NCBI GenBank assembly: GCA_018816555.1 | Contig: JAHIVT010000001.1 | Coordinates: 1 to 53,595 of the forward strand | Reading direction: 5' to 3' | Source of the DNA: Pseudomonadota bacterium | Lineage (GTDB): Bacteria; Desulfobacterota; Desulfobulbia; Desulfobulbales; SURF-16 | Length of the DNA stretch: 53,595 nt | Shown: positions 17,935 through 25,454 of the stretch, piece after piece | Layout of the letters: the number at the start of each line of letters is the position of its first letter | Numbering within the stretch: position 1 is the first letter of the stretch | Translations under genes and position numbers: made by a program | The notes under the pieces: model-generated | Told to the model about the DNA's origin: nothing | What the model saw: the letters and a program-made list of their open reading frames with translations, nothing else | The model's database searches: none

Positions 17935-19762
17935 TTTTTGCCAGGGGGAGATTGATCTTCACTTCCAGTCCGGTGTCGTGACGGTTCAGTGAAAAATTTC
18001 CCCCGTGGGCCTTGATAAATCGGTCAACCAGCGTGAGACCCATGCCTGTGCCATAGGTCTTGGTGGTAAAAAAAGGCTCGGTTGCCTTGTCCAGATAAGC
18101 CCCGGAAAGACCGATCCCGGTATCCCGGAGAGAAACATGGACCCACTCGTTGTCAACCGTGGCTGATATCTTCAGGGTTCCGCCATTTGGCATGGCCTCC
18201 ATGGCGTTGCGGATGATATTGAGGAAAACCCGGCGTATTTGCTTGCCGTCCATAAAAATGACAGGGTCAGGCTCGGCAAGGTCCAGGGTCCAGGAAATCT
18301 GATGTTTCACCAGGCTGGTCTGCAGCAGAATGACTGTTTTGCGGATGAGCGGATAGAGGTTGCTGATCTGTTTTTCGCCCTGGGGCTGGCTGACAAAGTC
18401 GAAGAGTTCGGTGAGGGTGGCCTCCAACCTGTCGGTTTCCTTGACCATGACATCAAGATATTTTTTCCATTCCGCCCCTTCAATTTTACGGCCGAGTATG
18501 CGGGCAACGCCACCGATGGAGGTGATGGGATTTCTGATCATATGCACCATCTGGGCCGCCATCTGGCCCAGGGCAGAGTATCTTTCGGCTTCAATCAGCA
18601 GGTCTTTGTTTTTGTCCAGCTCATGGGTCACCTCTTCAAGTTCATCGATCTTTTTCTGCATATCCATATACAGACGGCTCTGCTCAATGGCCAGACTTCC
18701 CTGGCTGGCAAAAAGTTCCAGGGTGCTGACATGGCTGTCCGGAATGGGCTTGCGGGTGACATAGTTGTCGGCGATGATGACGCCGATGGAGCGGCCCGGC
18801 GCAAAAAGCGGAACCACGACAAAGGTGTCTTCTTTGAGCAAGTTGATCAGGTCAGGCGGAACAGGAATCGAGGATATCCCGCAGCTGACCTTAAAGCTCT
18901 GTCTTTCAGTGGCTGATTTGATCAGGATATGGTCGGCAAAGGTGACGGGTATCCTGAGACTTTTGACGATCTGGTTGACGGTATCATCTTCCCGCATGCA
19001 GGCCTGGCCGAGGTTTTTGATGATTTCGTTGAAGTCAAGCTCCTTGGCTCGCATTTCCGCCCATATCTGCGCAGCTTCCTCCCTGCAGCCTGGTCCAATG
19101 GCCATTCTTCCTTCCAGAAATTGATTGCTGCTGTCAAACAAGGCAAGAAATGCACGGTTAAAGCGTAACCCTTCGTTGGCTGTAATGCCCACCAGAATGG
19201 CACGAAGGATCTCATCCAGCTCCACGGCATTGAGGTAGACGCTGTTCATTTTCAGGGAGAGCTGGTGCAGAAGCTGAATGCGGAAATAGGCCTGCTCAAG
19301 ATCGTCCTGGTAACGGCGGTTTTCAAGGATTAGTCGCCTTTTTTCCAGGTTTTTTTTCACCGCCACCATGATTTCGTTGAACTGGACGGGTTTGGTGATG
19401 TAATCATCAGCGCCGTTGCGGATGCAATCCAGGGCAACCTGTATATCCGACTGCCCGGAAAGCATGACAATAGAGACATCAGGATAGTTTGTCGTAATTT
19501 GAGGAAGCAGTGAGGCGCCGTCAGCATCCGGCAGGCCGATATCGAGCAAGACCAGCGCCGCATGTCTGTTAGCCAGCAGACTGATTAATTCACTGCCGCT
19601 GCTGGCATCGGCAACGGCGAAACCGTTCTGTTCGAAATAGAGTTTGAGCGGCTCGCGGATGGCAATCTCATCATCGACGATGACAATAACTTCATCCCCG
19701 TGCAGCAGATGTTCCGGTGCGAGTGAGATATATGGGCGTAGGCCGGTATTTGGGGCGATCAT
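17921..19762 (-). CDS. Receiver-GAF-histidine kinase signalling protein
   Basis: The 613-residue soluble protein begins with a receiver (VIVIVDDE; acceptor Asp74 in LLDIGLPDA; Lys in ITKPV). A GAF-like domain follows (about 170-370), then a kinase core. The phosphorylation segment reads MVHMIRNPITSIGG with His407; the residue after it is Met408 instead of the usual Glu or Asp. The ATPase domain is intact (NIIRNAMEAMP, DTGIGL, FFTTKTYGTGMGL). It overlaps the FliK-like gene by 14 bases, implying coupled translation. Because the receiver is N-terminal, an upstream kinase probably controls it. Confidence 0.93.
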   Translation of the reverse strand: MIAPNTGLRPYISLAPEHLLHGDEVIVIVDDEIAIREPLKLYFEQNGFAVADASSGSELISLLANRHAALVLLDIGLPDADGASLLPQITTNYPDVSIVMLSGQSDIQVALDCIRNGADDYITKPVQFNEIMVAVKKNLEKRRLILENRRYQDDLEQAYFRIQLLHQLSLKMNSVYLNAVELDEILRAILVGITANEGLRFNRAFLALFDSSNQFLEGRMAIGPGCREEAAQIWAEMRAKELDFNEIIKNLGQACMREDDTVNQIVKSLRIPVTFADHILIKSATERQSFKVSCGISSIPVPPDLINLLKEDTFVVVPLFAPGRSIGVIIADNYVTRKPIPDSHVSTLELFASQGSLAIEQSRLYMDMQKKIDELEEVTHELDKNKDLLIEAERYSALGQMAAQMVHMIRNPITSIGGVARILGRKIEGAEWKKYLDVMVKETDRLEATLTELFDFVSQPQGEKQISNLYPLIRKTVILLQTSLVKHQISWTLDLAEPDPVIFMDGKQIRRVFLNIIRNAMEAMPNGGTLKISATVDNEWVHVSLRDTGIGLSGAYLDKATEPFFTTKTYGTGMGLTLVDRFIKAHGGNFSLNRHDTGLEVKINLPLAKNENI

Positions 19763-19845
19763 CTTCGGTCTGCTCTGTGATGTTTCAGTAAGAACTTAAA
19801 TATTATATTTTCAATGTTCACCTATACTACCTTAACTGTCAAGGC

Positions 19846-19886
19846 AAAAAAAAACGCATTTCCGAAAAGAACGGAAATGCGTTTTT
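19846..19886 (-). terminator. Rho-independent terminator of yedE
   Basis: CGCATTTCCG (19855-19864) and CGGAAATGCG (19872-19881) form a perfect 10-bp stem with A-tract and T-tract flanks. It lies about 50 bases after the yedE stop and could act in both directions. Confidence 0.9.
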
Positions 19887-19933
19887 GCAAAAGGTGAAAA
19901 CCGGGCAAGAAGAAAATTGCCCGGGATCTTCTC

Positions 19934-21178
19934 TTACATTTCCACAATCAACTTGTTGGATTCTTCATTCCAGTCAACCGTGATATACCAGAAAAGCAGG
20001 AAGGCGGCGATGAGAAACAATGATCCGCCATAACCCATGACATCGGGCAGGTAGACATATTTACCAAGAACGCCGTCAGCCTCAAATTCCATGTCGTTGA
20101 ACCAGGCGGTCATGATGGAGTTGGTGATGCCGAAAATAGGCACAACGATCCACAGCTTGACCTGACCTTCGCCGACACGCCAGAGGGTTCCGGTACCGCA
20201 GCCGCCCGCCAGCATGGCGCCTAAGCCGAAGACAATGCCGCCGACCACGCCGCCCCAGCCGAAGGTGCCGCGCACATAGTTCATGGGGGCTAATACGGGG
20301 TCACCGTCAAGCCTGACCGGAACACCGTATTTGAGAACCGCTGCCCCGAGGGCTACGATAAAAATACTCAGTGCTACGGATTTAGCCATGGTGCAGTTGC
20401 CGGTCATATGGGGTTCGCGGAAACCCTGGATCATACACCAGCGGCCGCGCTGCATGGAGTAGCCGATGGCTGAGGCAATCAGCATGAGACCGCCAAGCGA
20501 AGCGATATAATCACTGTCTTCATTCCCTGAGTACATATAGGTGCCGGCAATCAGGGCCACGATGGCGACGATGCCGAGCAGGAAGTTCAGCCCCTTGGGA
20601 AATTCGATGGTTTTGGCGCCGCCGCTGCCCCAGGAGATATGTTCCATTTCCCAGTATATGTATTTGAGGCCGCCGATAACGCCGATCACCAAACCTGCCC
20701 ACATGGCAAAACCATGGGCGGACAGATTGCCGATGGCATTGTAGAAACCGCCGACATTACAGCCGCCGGCCAAGGCTGCGCCGATTCCCATGAAGACGCC
20801 GGCAACCAAGGCCTTGCATATTTCCAGCACGGGTGGGATACGGATGGCGAAATCGTTGCCCAGGCAGGCTGAAACAAAAGCCCCGCCCACAAAACCGATG
20901 CCGATAACCGAGCCGGTGTTTGTCAGAATGGAGCCGGGAGCATCTACATAGTAACCGAAAATGCCTGCATCTGAGCCGATCAAGCTGGTGATACCGTACA
21001 TGATCCAGTCGCCCCAGTTGCGGATTGCGCCCACTGCTCCCCATGGTCGCCACCAGGCCATGATCAGGATTGAGAACAAGGCCACCATCACACCCGTCAT
21101 TGTGGCATTCCACTCCGACTGGCAGAGGCTCTTGTACAGCCCCTTGATTTTACTTCCTAAAATGCTTTCCTCACTCAT
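19934..21178 (-). CDS. yedE: YeeE/YedE-family sulfur-compound transporter (YTD cluster)
   Basis: The 414-residue membrane protein is a full-length double-unit YeeE/YedE protein. Each half carries the Gly-Cys signature: GIGAALAGGCNVGGFYNAIG (Cys140) and LGAMLAGGCGTGTLWRVGEG. A third Cys motif, RWCMIQGF, lies between them. In the thiosulfate importer of this family, cysteines line the pathway and pass the substrate by transient thiol contacts. Here it faces tusA and DsrE-like genes across a shared intergenic region, the arrangement named YTD in sulfur-disproportionating bacteria. I infer uptake of a reduced sulfur species (thiosulfate, sulfane sulfur or polysulfide) for hand-over to TusA. A selenium role is less likely because selD is absent. 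Confidence 0.9.
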   Translation of the reverse strand: MSEESILGSKIKGLYKSLCQSEWNATMTGVMVALFSILIMAWWRPWGAVGAIRNWGDWIMYGITSLIGSDAGIFGYYVDAPGSILTNTGSVIGIGFVGGAFVSACLGNDFAIRIPPVLEICKALVAGVFMGIGAALAGGCNVGGFYNAIGNLSAHGFAMWAGLVIGVIGGLKYIYWEMEHISWGSGGAKTIEFPKGLNFLLGIVAIVALIAGTYMYSGNEDSDYIASLGGLMLIASAIGYSMQRGRWCMIQGFREPHMTGNCTMAKSVALSIFIVALGAAVLKYGVPVRLDGDPVLAPMNYVRGTFGWGGVVGGIVFGLGAMLAGGCGTGTLWRVGEGQVKLWIVVPIFGITNSIMTAWFNDMEFEADGVLGKYVYLPDVMGYGGSLFLIAAFLLFWYITVDWNEESNKLIVEM

Positions 21179-21538
21179 CTCTTTTCTCCCCTATTTTAAT
21201 GTTTCCTCATTGACAGCTGCCAATAAAACCGTCTGAACCATACTTCAAAGGAAGTCATTAATCACTTACAATTCATAACATTTTAAACCTTTACTCGCGA
21301 CGAAAAAAATTGTCAAGCATGTTATAGCAATGATTTGTCTTCAAAAAAAGGATAATAAGATTGCCTGAACCATGATTCATTTTTCGTCTTGACATAACAT
21401 TTCTTTCTTGTTATTTCAAAACGTGTATCAATATATGATTACTCATTTAATCATCTCATTCTTGCCTTGTTGAATCGTTTTAACGGGCGGGTTGAGGTAA
21501 AAGTTTTTCAAAGTCAAATCTGTTGTGAGGAGGAAACG
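21179..21538. promoter_or_regulatory. Divergent promoter region between yedE and the tusA operon
   Basis: This A/T-rich interval separates the divergent genes and holds no ORF of note. Toward tusA there is TTGACA (21389-21394), a 17-base spacer and TATTTC (21412-21417). Toward yedE there is TTGACA on the minus strand (21316-21311) but only a poor -10. The tusA ribosome site is GAGGAGGA just before the ATG. A shared regulator binding here is plausible, but no clear operator palindrome was seen. Confidence 0.45.
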
Positions 21539-21796
21539 ATGAGCGACATAAAAAAAGCCCCTGATAACGTACAAGCTGCCCGCACTTTGGATGCAAAAGG
21601 TCTGAGCTGTCCGATGCCTCTGCTGCGTACAAAAAAAGAAATTGATAAGATCAAATCCGGCGAGATTCTGGAAGTCCTCGGCACTGATCCTGGTTCACGT
21701 AATGATCTGCCGGGCTGGTGCACCAGGGCCGGTCATGAGTTTGTTGGAGAGAAGGAAGAATCCGGCTATTTCCGTTTCTTTATTAAGAAAAAATAA
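21539..21796 (+). CDS. tusA: TusA-family sulfur carrier protein
   Basis: TusA-type proteins carry sulfane sulfur on a conserved cysteine and pass it to DsrE-like partners, to tRNA thiolation or to dissimilatory sulfur enzymes. The 85-residue protein has the family motif GLSCPMPLLRTKKEI (Cys24) and a typical C-terminal half ending EESGYFRFFIKKK. The ATG at 21539 is set by a strong GAGGAGGA just upstream; the longer open frame from 21467 has no such site. It is the first gene of the plus-strand YTD operon. Confidence 0.93.
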   Translation: MSDIKKAPDNVQAARTLDAKGLSCPMPLLRTKKEIDKIKSGEILEVLGTDPGSRNDLPGWCTRAGHEFVGEKEESGYFRFFIKKK

Positions 21797-21882
21797 GTGA
21801 CAAGAAATATGTGATGATTAATGACGGCGCATTTGCCAAAAGCGGAGGCGCCGCTCTTGTTTGCTTTTAATGGAGGAATAAC

Positions 21883-22200
21883 ATGGCAAAAAGTATCGGG
21901 ATTTTTGTAACATCTCCCCAGAATATGAGGCATGTGGAGGGTATCACCAAGGCTGCCGTGGCCAAGGGCGCCAAAGTAAAGGTATTTTTTACCTGGATGT
22001 CCGCTCATCTGACCAAGTGCCCAAACTTTAAAACGCTTTGCGATATGGAGAACGTTGATGTTTCCATTTGCGCTGACAGCTATAAGAAATGTGGCTATGA
22101 CGTAGCTAATATTCCGGCGGGTCTGACCCAGGAAAAGATGGCTACCCAGGCACAGCATGGCGCTATCATTGAAGATTATGAATGCTATCTGACTTTATAG
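21883..22200 (+). CDS. DsrE/TusD-like sulfur relay protein
   Basis: The 105-residue protein has a DsrE-like alpha/beta layout: an N-terminal strand (SIGIFVTSPQN), a helix, and a second strand (KVKVFFTWM). A cysteine in SICADSYKKCGYD (Cys63) sits where DsrE/TusD keep the sulfur-carrying cysteine. Four other cysteines (46, 53, 70, 101) are unusual for such a small protein and could bind metal or hold sulfur. GGAGGA precedes the ATG. It lies between tusA and a DsrF-like gene, so it probably accepts sulfur from TusA or donates to it. Confidence 0.8.
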   Translation: MAKSIGIFVTSPQNMRHVEGITKAAVAKGAKVKVFFTWMSAHLTKCPNFKTLCDMENVDVSICADSYKKCGYDVANIPAGLTQEKMATQAQHGAIIEDYECYLTL

Positions 22201-22209
22201 GAGGAACCG

Positions 22210-22530
22210 ATGTCAAAGAAAGTATGCTTTATGTACCCTAGCAGCGACTATATCCTTGATGGTGTCAGATCAGCTCTCGGTCTTGCCGTGGAAAATATGT
22301 ATGCCTATGGTGTTGTCATGAACAACGAGATAGAAGAGAACATGATGACCGATTACCATAAGGAAAACATCGACTGGATTCGTGATATGGAAGGTGAGAT
22401 TTTTTCTATTCCGGATGGCAATGTTGAGAAATACGGCTTGGTGAAAATGACTCTTGAGGAACTTGGACAGAAGCTTCGGGACATGGAAATCATTGTACCC
22501 TATGGCATTATGAGAAGTGATAAGAGCTGA
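22210..22530 (+). CDS. DsrF/TusC-like small protein of the YTD cluster
   Basis: The 106-residue protein begins KKVCFMYPSSDYILDGVRSALGL, whose strand-loop-helix order and the following YAYGVVMNNEI resemble the start of DsrF/TusC proteins. The only cysteine is Cys5 in the first strand, so it lacks a DsrE-type active-site cysteine and is probably structural. The rest is acidic and rich in Met. GGAGG precedes the ATG and the gene follows the DsrE-like gene by nine bases. In published YTD clusters this position is called hypothetical; the DsrF-like reading is my inference. Confidence 0.6.
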   Translation: MSKKVCFMYPSSDYILDGVRSALGLAVENMYAYGVVMNNEIEENMMTDYHKENIDWIRDMEGEIFSIPDGNVEKYGLVKMTLEELGQKLRDMEIIVPYGIMRSDKS

Positions 22531-22573
22531 TTTTTGCAGCTAAGAGTTAAGATCTTACAGGGGAGAATGCAAA

Positions 22574-22747
22574 ATGAAAATCCTGCATGTATACCGTTCC
22601 GAGCCTAATGATGATGTCAAGAAACTGGTTGAGATCGTCTCCGAAGGCCGTGATAATGAAACCTTTAATCTGAATGTAGATGCTCCTGACTATGATAAGC
22701 TGGTCGATATGGTCTGGGGCGCTGATCAGACAATCTGCTGGTGGTAA
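22574..22747 (+). CDS. Very small DsrH/TusB-like protein of the YTD cluster
   Basis: A 57-codon gene starts with ATG at 22574, with GGGAGA upstream. It starts MKILHVYRSEPNDDVKKLVE and ends QTICWW. The opening strand, Arg-Ser pair and following helix match the beginning of DsrH/TusB proteins (for example the LHTLHRSP start of TusB), but the protein is little more than half their length. A single Cys lies three residues from the end. It is the last gene before a strong terminator. Coding is supported by position, ribosome site and clean codon structure; the family link is inference. Confidence 0.6.
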   Translation: MKILHVYRSEPNDDVKKLVEIVSEGRDNETFNLNVDAPDYDKLVDMVWGADQTICWW

Positions 22748-22776
22748 ACTCCGCCCGCTTCGCATAAGCTCATTAT

Positions 22777-22815
22777 AAAAAAAACCCGCCAGGTATTTGC
22801 CTGGCGGGTTTTTTT
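22777..22815. terminator. Bidirectional terminator between the YTD operon and the secretion operon
   Basis: CCCGCCAGG and CCTGGCGGG form a perfect 9-bp G/C-rich stem around a short loop, with A-tract and T-tract flanks of six or more bases. It sits between convergent transcripts (small gene ending 22747 on plus, hypothetical gene ending 22835 on minus) and can serve both. Confidence 0.93.
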
Positions 22816-22834
22816 GTTTTTGGCAATAAGATCT

Positions 22835-23167
22835 CTATGCTTTGATCTGTTCCTCCTGAAGCATATTGTCCACGAAGCCGAGAAGATAGTCTCTTTGTGC
22901 CTTGGTTGCATAGCTGATGCAGGAGCAGTGTAAATTGCTCTGGCTCCTGACCAGCAGTTCGACGATCAGCTTTTTCTCCGCCAGTTCCAGACCAAAGAAA
23001 AAAGGACCGCATTCTTCGTGGCCATGTTGTGCCTCAGCCAGCAGGTCATCCGGGACCGGCAACCAGAACATCCCCTCCATGCCCCCTTGCCTCGCCGTTC
23101 TCTTCATATAGTTATCCAGGTTGTCTCGTTCTTCCCTGCTGAGCTCATCAATTACAAACTGTCGCAT
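22835..23167 (-). CDS. Conserved-looking hypothetical protein at the end of the secretion operon
   Basis: The 110-residue protein is acidic, with no signal peptide or membrane helix. It starts MRQFVIDELSREERDNLDNY and has a central FWLPVPDDLL and a CSCIS segment. I do not recognise the family. Its start lies 13 bases after the gspD stop, so it is probably the last gene of the type II secretion operon, just before the terminator at 22777-22815. The sequence gives no hint of a secretion role. Confidence 0.7.
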   Translation of the reverse strand: MRQFVIDELSREERDNLDNYMKRTARQGGMEGMFWLPVPDDLLAEAQHGHEECGPFFFGLELAEKKLIVELLVRSQSNLHCSCISYATKAQRDYLLGFVDNMLQEEQIKA

Positions 23168-23180
23168 TTTCCATTCCTTT

Positions 23181-25454
23181 TTACCATTTATCTCTAGGGC
23201 TTGCGGCCATAGGCTTGGTGAGTTCCGGCCGCAATTGTTTTATCTTATCTGCAAACTCACGTGAATATTGGTCAAGCACATCCTCTGATTCAATAACATA
23301 GGGTGTGATGATCATAATGAGTTCCGTTTTGTCCTCTTTATCCTTCTGGTACTTGAACAGGTTCCCGAGAATGGGGATATCCATGAGAAAGGGGACTCCG
23401 CTTTGCGTGGTCGATGTATTCCTGTCGATCAGCCCCCCCATGAGGATGGCCTGTCCGTTTTTGACCGCCAGTTTGGTCTGCAGTTCACGCTTTGATATCA
23501 CCGGTGAACTGATATCCGAAAGGGTGTTTTCTTCGGCCTTGCTTACCGTCTGGCTTACCTCAAGCAGAATAATGCCGTTATAGTTGATCTGGGGAGTTAC
23601 TTCCAGAATGACACCGGTATCCTTGTATTGCACAGTCTTGTCAACCTGGCTGACCGTGGTGCTGTTTTCCGTAACGGTTGTGACGATCGGCACCTGCTTG
23701 CCGACATTCACCGAGGCCTTTTCATTGTTTAGCACCAGAATCTGCGGTGAGGAGAGGACGGTTAAATTGTTCCTGGAGGCCAGGGTCTGCAGAAAGCCCG
23801 CCACATCGCCGTAATTGAAGGAGTAAGAAAAGCCGCCGGGATAGGTGGTGGAAGTCACTCCGTTGGTGGTGGTGGTGGATGCGCCCACCGCGGAAAAAGA
23901 AGTGCCGAAGGCATACTTATTACTGGTAAGAAACCATTCGAGGCCTAATTCCAGTTCGTTGGTCAGTTGTATTTCCGCCACCAGCACCTCGACCAGCACC
24001 TGGCGTGGCAGATTGTCGAGCCGTTCCAGCAGTTTGACGATACGGATGTAATCCCCCGGCAGAGCCCTGATGAGAATGACGTTGCGGTCATCGTCGCCAA
24101 AAACAACAGGCGTTCCCATGAAACGAAGCGATGAGAGGGGGCTGCCGGTGGATGTGGATGTGGAGCTGCTGCTGGTGCTTTTTTGGTTGGCGGTGGTCTT
24201 GGTGGCCTTCTGGTCCTTGGTCTGGGTAGTAGGGGTGGTCTTTTTTCCCGTGGTTTTCTGGGTCGTCGGTTGTTCTTCGGTAATAAGCTGGTTGATGAGG
24301 TCGGCAAGGCCTGACGCCACAGAATTGCGCACGTTATAGATATAAATATTATCTCTGTCCTGGGAAGGGACAACATCAAGCTCTTTGATCCAGTCAACTC
24401 CGTTTTGCACCTGATTTTCACTGTTGCTGACCAGCAACAGCGAATTGACGCGCTCCAGAGGCACCACGGTTATCCCCTCAAAATCTTTGCCGTTGATTTT
24501 GAGCGCAGTGAAGATTTCCGTCAATTCATCCCGCAGGTCATAGATCGGGGCGTTATCCACCCTGACTAATTTGATATGAACGGAGGCGAGTGGCGAGATG
24601 TCGATTCTGGCAATAATGCGCAGAATATCCATGACCTTGCTTTCATAGTCACTGACAAGCAGGGTGTTCTGTTGGGGAAGATCATAGAGCGATCCCTGGG
24701 CCGAGAGGTATGGTTCAACGAGTTTCAGCACCTCCGAGGAGGAAAGATGGGCAAGGGGCACGACCTGGATAATGAACTGCGGGGAATCTTTAAGACCGGC
24801 AATTTTTTCCGGGCCGCTGACCCGTTCGTTGCCCAGTTTTTTTGCCACGTAAATATATTGGTAGTCTCCTTCACTACGCATATCAAGGCCGTTGATATGC
24901 AGGATCTTGGTAAAAATTTCATAGAGCTGATTTGTTGGGATTTTGCTGCCGGAGTGGATATTAACTACCCCTTTTACCTGGGGATCAATAATGTAATTGA
25001 GGTTAAGCGTGCCGGCGATTACCTGAATAACCTCGAAAATATCCGCATTATCAAAATTGAGCAGTAAACCCTCAGACTCTGCTTCACCGGCGGCTGCCTG
25101 GGGCTTGCTTGTTGTGCTTGCTGAGCTGGCCTCTGAAATCTTGGCTGCGAAATTATCCCGGCCTTCCGACGGCGGGGTCATGTCTTTTATTTTGATGCGC
25201 GGCTCATGCTTTTCCTGCTGCTCTTCCGCCTCGAGGATAGCAGATTTTTTGTCCTCCCTGCTGACGGCTTTGTTCATCTTGGCCATATCGATGGGAGGGA
25301 GATCGAGTCTGCTGTTAAACGCACAGCCGCTGCTGAGCAGCATCAGCAGAAATGACAGTGCCGCCAGTCTGAAGAGCAGCGAGTGGCTGGCATGAGATGA
25401 TCTCTGCGAAACAGGATCCTTGGTGTGGAAAAAGATATTTTTGCTACCGTTCAT
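23181..25454 (-). CDS. gspD: Type II secretion outer-membrane secretin GspD
   Basis: GspD forms the multimeric outer-membrane channel of type II secretion. From ATG 25454 the protein has 757 residues. A lipoprotein-type signal (LLMLLSSGCAF) suggests lipid anchoring. N-terminal ring-forming domains N0-N3 follow (for example LLLNFDNADIFEVIQVIAGT), then the secretin core (VGKQVPIVTTVTE, then GVPFLMDIPILGNLFKYQ) and a C-terminal stretch. About 45 residues rich in Thr, Ser, Lys and Gln interrupt the N3 region near 24150-24290, a low-complexity loop. The in-frame start at 25538 would overlap the upstream gene by 50 bases and give no proper signal, so I reject it. Confidence 0.95.
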   Translation of the reverse strand: MNGSKNIFFHTKDPVSQRSSHASHSLLFRLAALSFLLMLLSSGCAFNSRLDLPPIDMAKMNKAVSREDKKSAILEAEEQQEKHEPRIKIKDMTPPSEGRDNFAAKISEASSASTTSKPQAAAGEAESEGLLLNFDNADIFEVIQVIAGTLNLNYIIDPQVKGVVNIHSGSKIPTNQLYEIFTKILHINGLDMRSEGDYQYIYVAKKLGNERVSGPEKIAGLKDSPQFIIQVVPLAHLSSSEVLKLVEPYLSAQGSLYDLPQQNTLLVSDYESKVMDILRIIARIDISPLASVHIKLVRVDNAPIYDLRDELTEIFTALKINGKDFEGITVVPLERVNSLLLVSNSENQVQNGVDWIKELDVVPSQDRDNIYIYNVRNSVASGLADLINQLITEEQPTTQKTTGKKTTPTTQTKDQKATKTTANQKSTSSSSTSTSTGSPLSSLRFMGTPVVFGDDDRNVILIRALPGDYIRIVKLLERLDNLPRQVLVEVLVAEIQLTNELELGLEWFLTSNKYAFGTSFSAVGASTTTTNGVTSTTYPGGFSYSFNYGDVAGFLQTLASRNNLTVLSSPQILVLNNEKASVNVGKQVPIVTTVTENSTTVSQVDKTVQYKDTGVILEVTPQINYNGIILLEVSQTVSKAEENTLSDISSPVISKRELQTKLAVKNGQAILMGGLIDRNTSTTQSGVPFLMDIPILGNLFKYQKDKEDKTELIMIITPYVIESEDVLDQYSREFADKIKQLRPELTKPMAASPRDKW

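Follow-up and report, generated by a model that had tools for sequence, protein, structure and literature searches.

The closest described relatives of the genes examined here form the YTD (YedE-TusA-DsrE) cluster, which has been surveyed in disproportionating bacteria and is not usable as a marker on its own (PMC12998232), and whose proteins are raised during thiosulfate disproportionation (PMC9751629). The trio of small proteins encoded alongside YedE and TusA was named DsrEFH type II in a 2026 account covering 985 genomes, in which the homologues from the cable bacterium E. aureum co-purified in a 1:1:1 ratio and sulfur was exchanged in vitro between TusA and Cys67 of DsrE and passed on to DsrC (PMC13293266). 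Independent structural modelling of the trio, also from 2026, reached the same conclusion (PMC13047784). Here we analyse a stretch of 53,595 nucleotides (the window; contig JAHIVT010000001.1 of assembly GCA_018816555.1, from the phylum Desulfobacterota) that carries a complete YTD cluster at positions 19934-22747, and we find this operon to be a real, well-formed further member of the DsrEFH type II/YTD system. The first-pass annotation of the window had regarded the system as little-described, a view that the modelling and biochemical work of 2026 has overtaken.

The window operon shares with the published examples the same five genes in the same order, the active cysteine of DsrE, two small proteins that lack a family annotation and a background of reductive DsrAB. 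It differs from them in nothing essential, and is known here from its genes and models. Other characterized systems are more distant. DsrEFH type I of Allochromatium vinosum (2HY5) likewise has three small subunits, a DsrE-type fold and one conserved DsrE cysteine; however, it goes with oxidative Dsr, whereas the window trio goes with reductive Dsr, and the F and H proteins of the window have no recognizable sequence similarity to it, the window DsrH being only 57 amino acids long and devoid of a conserved cysteine. The TusA-TusBCD relay of E. coli (2D1P) follows the same relay logic with a comparable cysteine motif, and TusB, like the 57-amino-acid protein, ends in tryptophan, but TusBCD delivers to TusE and tRNA thiolation, in place of which the window proteins presumably serve DsrC and Dsr. 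Finally, TsuA-TsuB (YeeE-YeeD) also pairs a Sulf_transp channel with a TusA-like partner. The window transporter retains all three transport cysteines of TsuA together with its two hand-off arginines, but the halves of the window protein occur in the opposite order and its partner scores as TusA rather than TsuB.

Organization and conservation of the locus

Translation of the open reading frames in 19000-23800 placed all five genes as first annotated, with yedE divergent from tusA, a dsrE-like gene and two small genes. The features of the locus are as follows.

19850-19886, minus strand: intrinsic terminator downstream of yedE (15-bp stem, folding z -5.9)
19934-21178, minus strand: yedE, YedE-type Sulf_transp membrane protein of 414 amino acids (Pfam match, invariant cysteines, alignment to TsuA 6leo)
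21179-21538, no strand: divergent intergenic region between yedE and tusA (from the sequence)
21539-21796, plus strand: tusA, TusA-family sulfur carrier of 85 amino acids with a CPMP motif and active Cys24 (Pfam PF01206, 1.4e-27)
21883-22200, plus strand: dsrE type II, 105 amino acids, with presumed sulfur-accepting Cys63 in SICADSY (family match in relatives, conservation of Cys63)
22210-22530, plus strand: dsrF type II (CHP of the YTD cluster), 106 amino acids, DsrE/F fold (AlphaFold2 model, PDB fold matches)
22574-22747, plus strand: dsrH type II (CHP of the YTD cluster), 57 amino acids, with C-terminal Trp-Trp (AlphaFold2 model, conservation of the two tryptophans)
22778-22815, plus strand: intrinsic terminator of the tusA-dsrEFH operon (17-bp stem, folding z -7.5)

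Each of the five open reading frames is preceded by a Shine-Dalgarno-like stretch, and the four genes from tusA to dsrH are separated by gaps of 86, 9 and 43 bases. Strong terminators had been proposed at both ends, and this holds: although terminator-like sites are present in the region only at the number expected by chance (5 versus 5.3), the two listed above are exceptional in strength. Matches to promoter-like sequences in 21179-21538 did not exceed the chance count. A hairpin in the gap between tusA and dsrE (21797-21882) was considered and rejected, its z of -1.8 being within chance.

Searching species genomes with the 106-amino-acid protein yielded 80 related loci. On contigs of sufficient length, nearly all of them show the same gene order, and yedE lies upstream in either divergent or co-directional orientation. 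All five genes are real, since most of these loci repeat the five-gene order, with DsrF identities of 47-97%. A second set of 50 further loci includes many that have diverged much further, and in nearly every one of the 50 DsrE, DsrF and DsrH are found together, with or without adjoining TusA and YedE. The trio is thus kept in close and divergent loci alike, as the synteny of DsrEFH type II demands, although this reflects gene order and not scores from the hidden Markov models of the original authors. Seven loci (L120, L121, L122, L129, L131, L132 and L133) carry dsrEFH type II with no yedE or tusA within 4 kb, and therefore the trio, rather than the whole YTD set, is the invariant core. At three others (L123, L124 and L130) the order is tusA-dsrF-dsrH-dsrE instead of tusA-dsrE-dsrF-dsrH. 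Two metagenome-assembled genomes have two trio loci each (L014 with L026, and L061 with L068), so that some organisms may possess two copies.

TusA and the DsrEFH type II proteins

The 85-amino-acid carrier scores as TusA, with 65 bits against 17 for TsuB/YeeD, and its Cys24 (codon 21608-21610) is invariant in relatives. The window DsrE falls below the threshold of its family (15.4 of 22.7 bits), but relatives reach 1.6e-5; the 106- and 57-amino-acid proteins give no match at all, and hence none of the three exceeds a DsrE/DsrF family cut-off in the way that is used to recognize DsrEFH type I and TusBCD. Cys63 of DsrE (codon 22069-22071) is invariant in 49 of 49 divergent relatives. Its motif, SICADSY, parallels NICVAAA of E. 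coli TusD, and by motif and comparison with TusD this residue corresponds to Cys67 of E. aureum DsrE. An hhalign comparison of the DsrE profile with the single E. coli TusD sequence gave no signal.

The N-termini of the two small proteins had been thought to resemble DsrF/TusC and DsrH/TusB. Neither protein matched a Pfam or NCBIfam family, even when profiles were used, and sequence searches of the PDB returned nothing meaningful, the weak matches being attributable to chance. Structure prediction was more informative for the 106-amino-acid protein. An AlphaFold2 model built from its alignment (predicted local distance difference test, pLDDT, of 92.8) has as its best PDB matches only proteins of the DsrE/F/TusBCD type, beginning with 3mc3 (Z 10.5, 3.1 A over 96 residues) and continuing through matches at Z 9.7, 9.6 (YchN) and 8.9 to TusD (Z 8.8, 2.8 A over 97 residues) and DsrE of A. 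vinosum (2hy5_A; Z 8.6, 2.7 A over 97 residues), whereas unrelated folds drop to Z 6.5 or lower. The DsrE/F fold of this protein is thereby confirmed at the level of a predicted model. There is no invariant cysteine in the DsrF type II alignment.

The model of the 57-amino-acid protein (pLDDT 92.7) has a beta-alpha-beta-alpha-beta arrangement, and the C-terminal Trp-Trp is almost perfectly conserved, with W57 present in 51 of 51 sequences and W56 in 50 of 51; the DsrH type II alignment, too, contains no invariant cysteine. Because the fold match of this protein is tied with those of unrelated proteins, its assignment as DsrH rests on gene position, conservation of its partners and the literature. 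Hence the proposed DsrF resemblance is borne out by the predicted structure, whereas it is synteny and published work that make the smaller protein a probable DsrH. The accompanying suggestion of a 'reduced' EFH relay applies to this protein (E. coli TusB has 95 amino acids) and not to the remainder of the complex. It might be argued that the two small proteins are unrelated accessory proteins that are neither DsrF nor DsrH, as no sequence family recognizes them and the fold of the smaller one is generic. We consider this very improbable given the DsrF-like fold, the constant co-occurrence of the three genes and the co-purification of their homologues in equal proportions (PMC13293266).

YedE resembles TsuA with its halves exchanged

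The transporter matches Pfam PF04143 (1.8e-40) and is the sole Sulf_transp protein found in its own genome. Its two homologous halves align to positions 152-309 and then 1-155 of the Pfam model, and the same reversal is evident relative to TsuA (6leo), in that YedE residues 230-351 correspond to TsuA 6-117 and residues 92-175 to TsuA 246-330 (profile positions). A profile of the C-terminal half of YedE reaches 76 bits against the N-terminal half of TsuA and 3 bits against the C-terminal half; for a profile of the N-terminal half of YedE, the values are 43 bits against the C-terminal half of TsuA and 9 bits against the N-terminal half. Comparison with E. coli TsuA gave the same exchange for the C-terminal half of YedE. 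The window protein is colinear with E. coli YedE; despite this colinearity, it does not reach the curated cut-off for selenium YedE/FdhT (107 of 350 bits), nor does it reach those of the curated TsuA (YeeE) families (87 of 645 and 73 of 400 bits). In a limited literature search we found no earlier description of the order of the halves in YedE and YeeE.

Across 70 sequences C140, C248 and C327 of YedE are invariant, as are R254 and R334 in the alignment. By alignment, C22, C91 and C293 of TsuA map to C248, C327 and C140 of YedE, respectively, and R28 and R98 map to R254 and R334; in TsuA these residues are the transport cysteines and the hand-off arginines (PMC11582611, PMC11073785). Because both groups of residues are retained, we argue that direct hand-off from YedE to a TusA-type partner is conserved. 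The order of the halves, together with this residue map, offers a concrete mutational test of import, which is the least understood step of the route proposed below.

Association with the Dsr pathway

To place the trio in its phylum, 297 genomes of the Desulfobacterota group were surveyed. The DsrF type II profile was found in 54 genomes and DsrA in 145; DsrA is present in 53 of the 54 genomes with DsrF type II versus 92 of the 243 without it (odds ratio of approximately 87, Fisher p 3e-18, uncorrected for phylogeny). The only genome with DsrF type II but no DsrA comes from a genus in which DsrA is present in the other members sampled. Such a distribution supports a Dsr-linked role, and lends no special support to disproportionation.

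The genome from which the window derives contains a single DsrF type II, and in it dsrD follows dsrA and dsrB, which marks its Dsr as the reductive type. It also encodes one DsrC, ending in GACKMAGLPKPTGCV with both C-terminal cysteines present, as well as AprBA and QmoABC, the latter recognized by gene order after aprBA and by domain content. The AprB of this genome is 142 amino acids long (945-1373 of locus L113, contig C79); truncation of AprB at its C-terminus is among the proposed markers of disproportionation (PMC12998232).

The first proposal in the YTD literature was that the same relay mechanism has a role specific to disproportionation, with sulfur derived from elemental sulfur, or thiosulfate, entering through YedE and TusA and DsrEFH type II acting as acceptor. 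The cluster is present in all elemental-sulfur disproportionators of one survey (PMC12998232), in which some clusters include a third hypothetical protein (chp1-3) that cannot be matched to a particular gene from the text. However, among 63 cultured disproportionators only 25 carry the trio, which also occurs in many non-disproportionating sulfate reducers (PMC13293266), and in our sample it tracks DsrA generally. The link to elemental-sulfur disproportionation made in the first-pass annotation is accordingly weak, and we judge a role confined to that process possible but rather doubtful.

Biosynthetic trafficking of sulfur or selenium is a further explanation, in which YedE would import either element for the thiolation of tRNA or the synthesis of cofactors and the trio would act like TusBCD. 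The fold and cysteine motif held in common with TusD agree with this, as does colinearity with E. coli YedE, which is annotated as a putative selenium transporter. Nevertheless, near-universal co-occurrence with DsrA would be unexpected of housekeeping thiolation, the score of YedE is far under the selenium YedE/FdhT cut-off, and DsrC is the in vitro acceptor for the homologous proteins (PMC13293266). Trafficking of this kind is therefore improbable.

Proposed role of the operon

The likeliest role of the operon is sulfane-sulfur import and relay to DsrC and DsrAB, and we are largely confident that it encodes a line running from YedE through TusA and DsrEFH type II to DsrC and on to Dsr, Apr and Qmo. 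In this scheme, a sulfane-sulfur compound (polysulfide, thiosulfate or persulfide) would enter through the cysteine-lined channel of YedE, and its sulfur would be taken up by TusA as a persulfide on Cys24. TusA would then deliver to Cys63 of DsrE within the DsrEFH type II complex, of which the DsrF and DsrH proteins, lacking conserved cysteines, would be structural partners. From the complex, sulfur would pass to DsrC and thence to reductive-type Dsr, Apr and Qmo, which probably work oxidatively here, either in sulfur oxidation or as the oxidative half of disproportionation. The imported substrate, the transfer from YedE to TusA and the direction in vivo are the steps that we infer.

Several observations weigh against this assignment. 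The fold match of the 57-amino-acid protein to A. vinosum DsrEFH (2hy5_A) ranks only fifth (Z 4.4, 2.5 A over 56 residues), level with unrelated proteins, and Foldseek and VIA-align gave generic matches for so small a model. No profile link from DsrF or DsrH type II to E. coli TusC or TusB was detected by hhalign, a comparison of low power with one-sequence templates. The likeness to the assayed E. aureum proteins is drawn from sequence features and not from a direct identity figure. The genomes surveyed are not independent, and the association with DsrA is partly phylogenetic. Moreover, the assembly comprises 183 contigs and has 4% contamination, and the dsr and apr genes are found on contigs other than that of the window, so that they could be mis-binned. 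Lastly, thiosulfate failed to persulfidate the TusA of cable bacteria (PMC13293266), and the imported compound is therefore given above as one of several candidates.

A more specific proposal, to which we give somewhat less than even weight, is that YedE, as a half-swapped cousin of TsuA, forms with TusA a direct import-to-persulfide port feeding DsrEFH type II and DsrC, and thereby enables DsrAB of the reductive type to work in reverse, both in this bacterium and in many further sulfate reducers. Should DsrEFH type II be a sign of the capacity to oxidize sulfur, this capacity may extend to approximately one-fifth of the sulfate reducers and disproportionators now known (PMC13293266); the window adds another carrier with a full Dsr, Apr and Qmo background.

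A conserved neighbouring gene

A protein of 110 amino acids is encoded at 22835-23167 on the minus strand, convergent with the operon, and its gene adjoins the operon in close relatives of the window. It was rejected as a sixth part of the operon, as in other families it is located elsewhere without a shared neighbourhood. It has no Pfam or NCBIfam match, and its invariant residues are C53, C81, C83, H50 and H80. The protein occurs in 107 of the 297 genomes, nearly always as a single copy, and 102 of these genomes have DsrA (Fisher p 1e-37, uncorrected for phylogeny). It is possibly an undescribed metal-binding protein associated with sulfate reduction.
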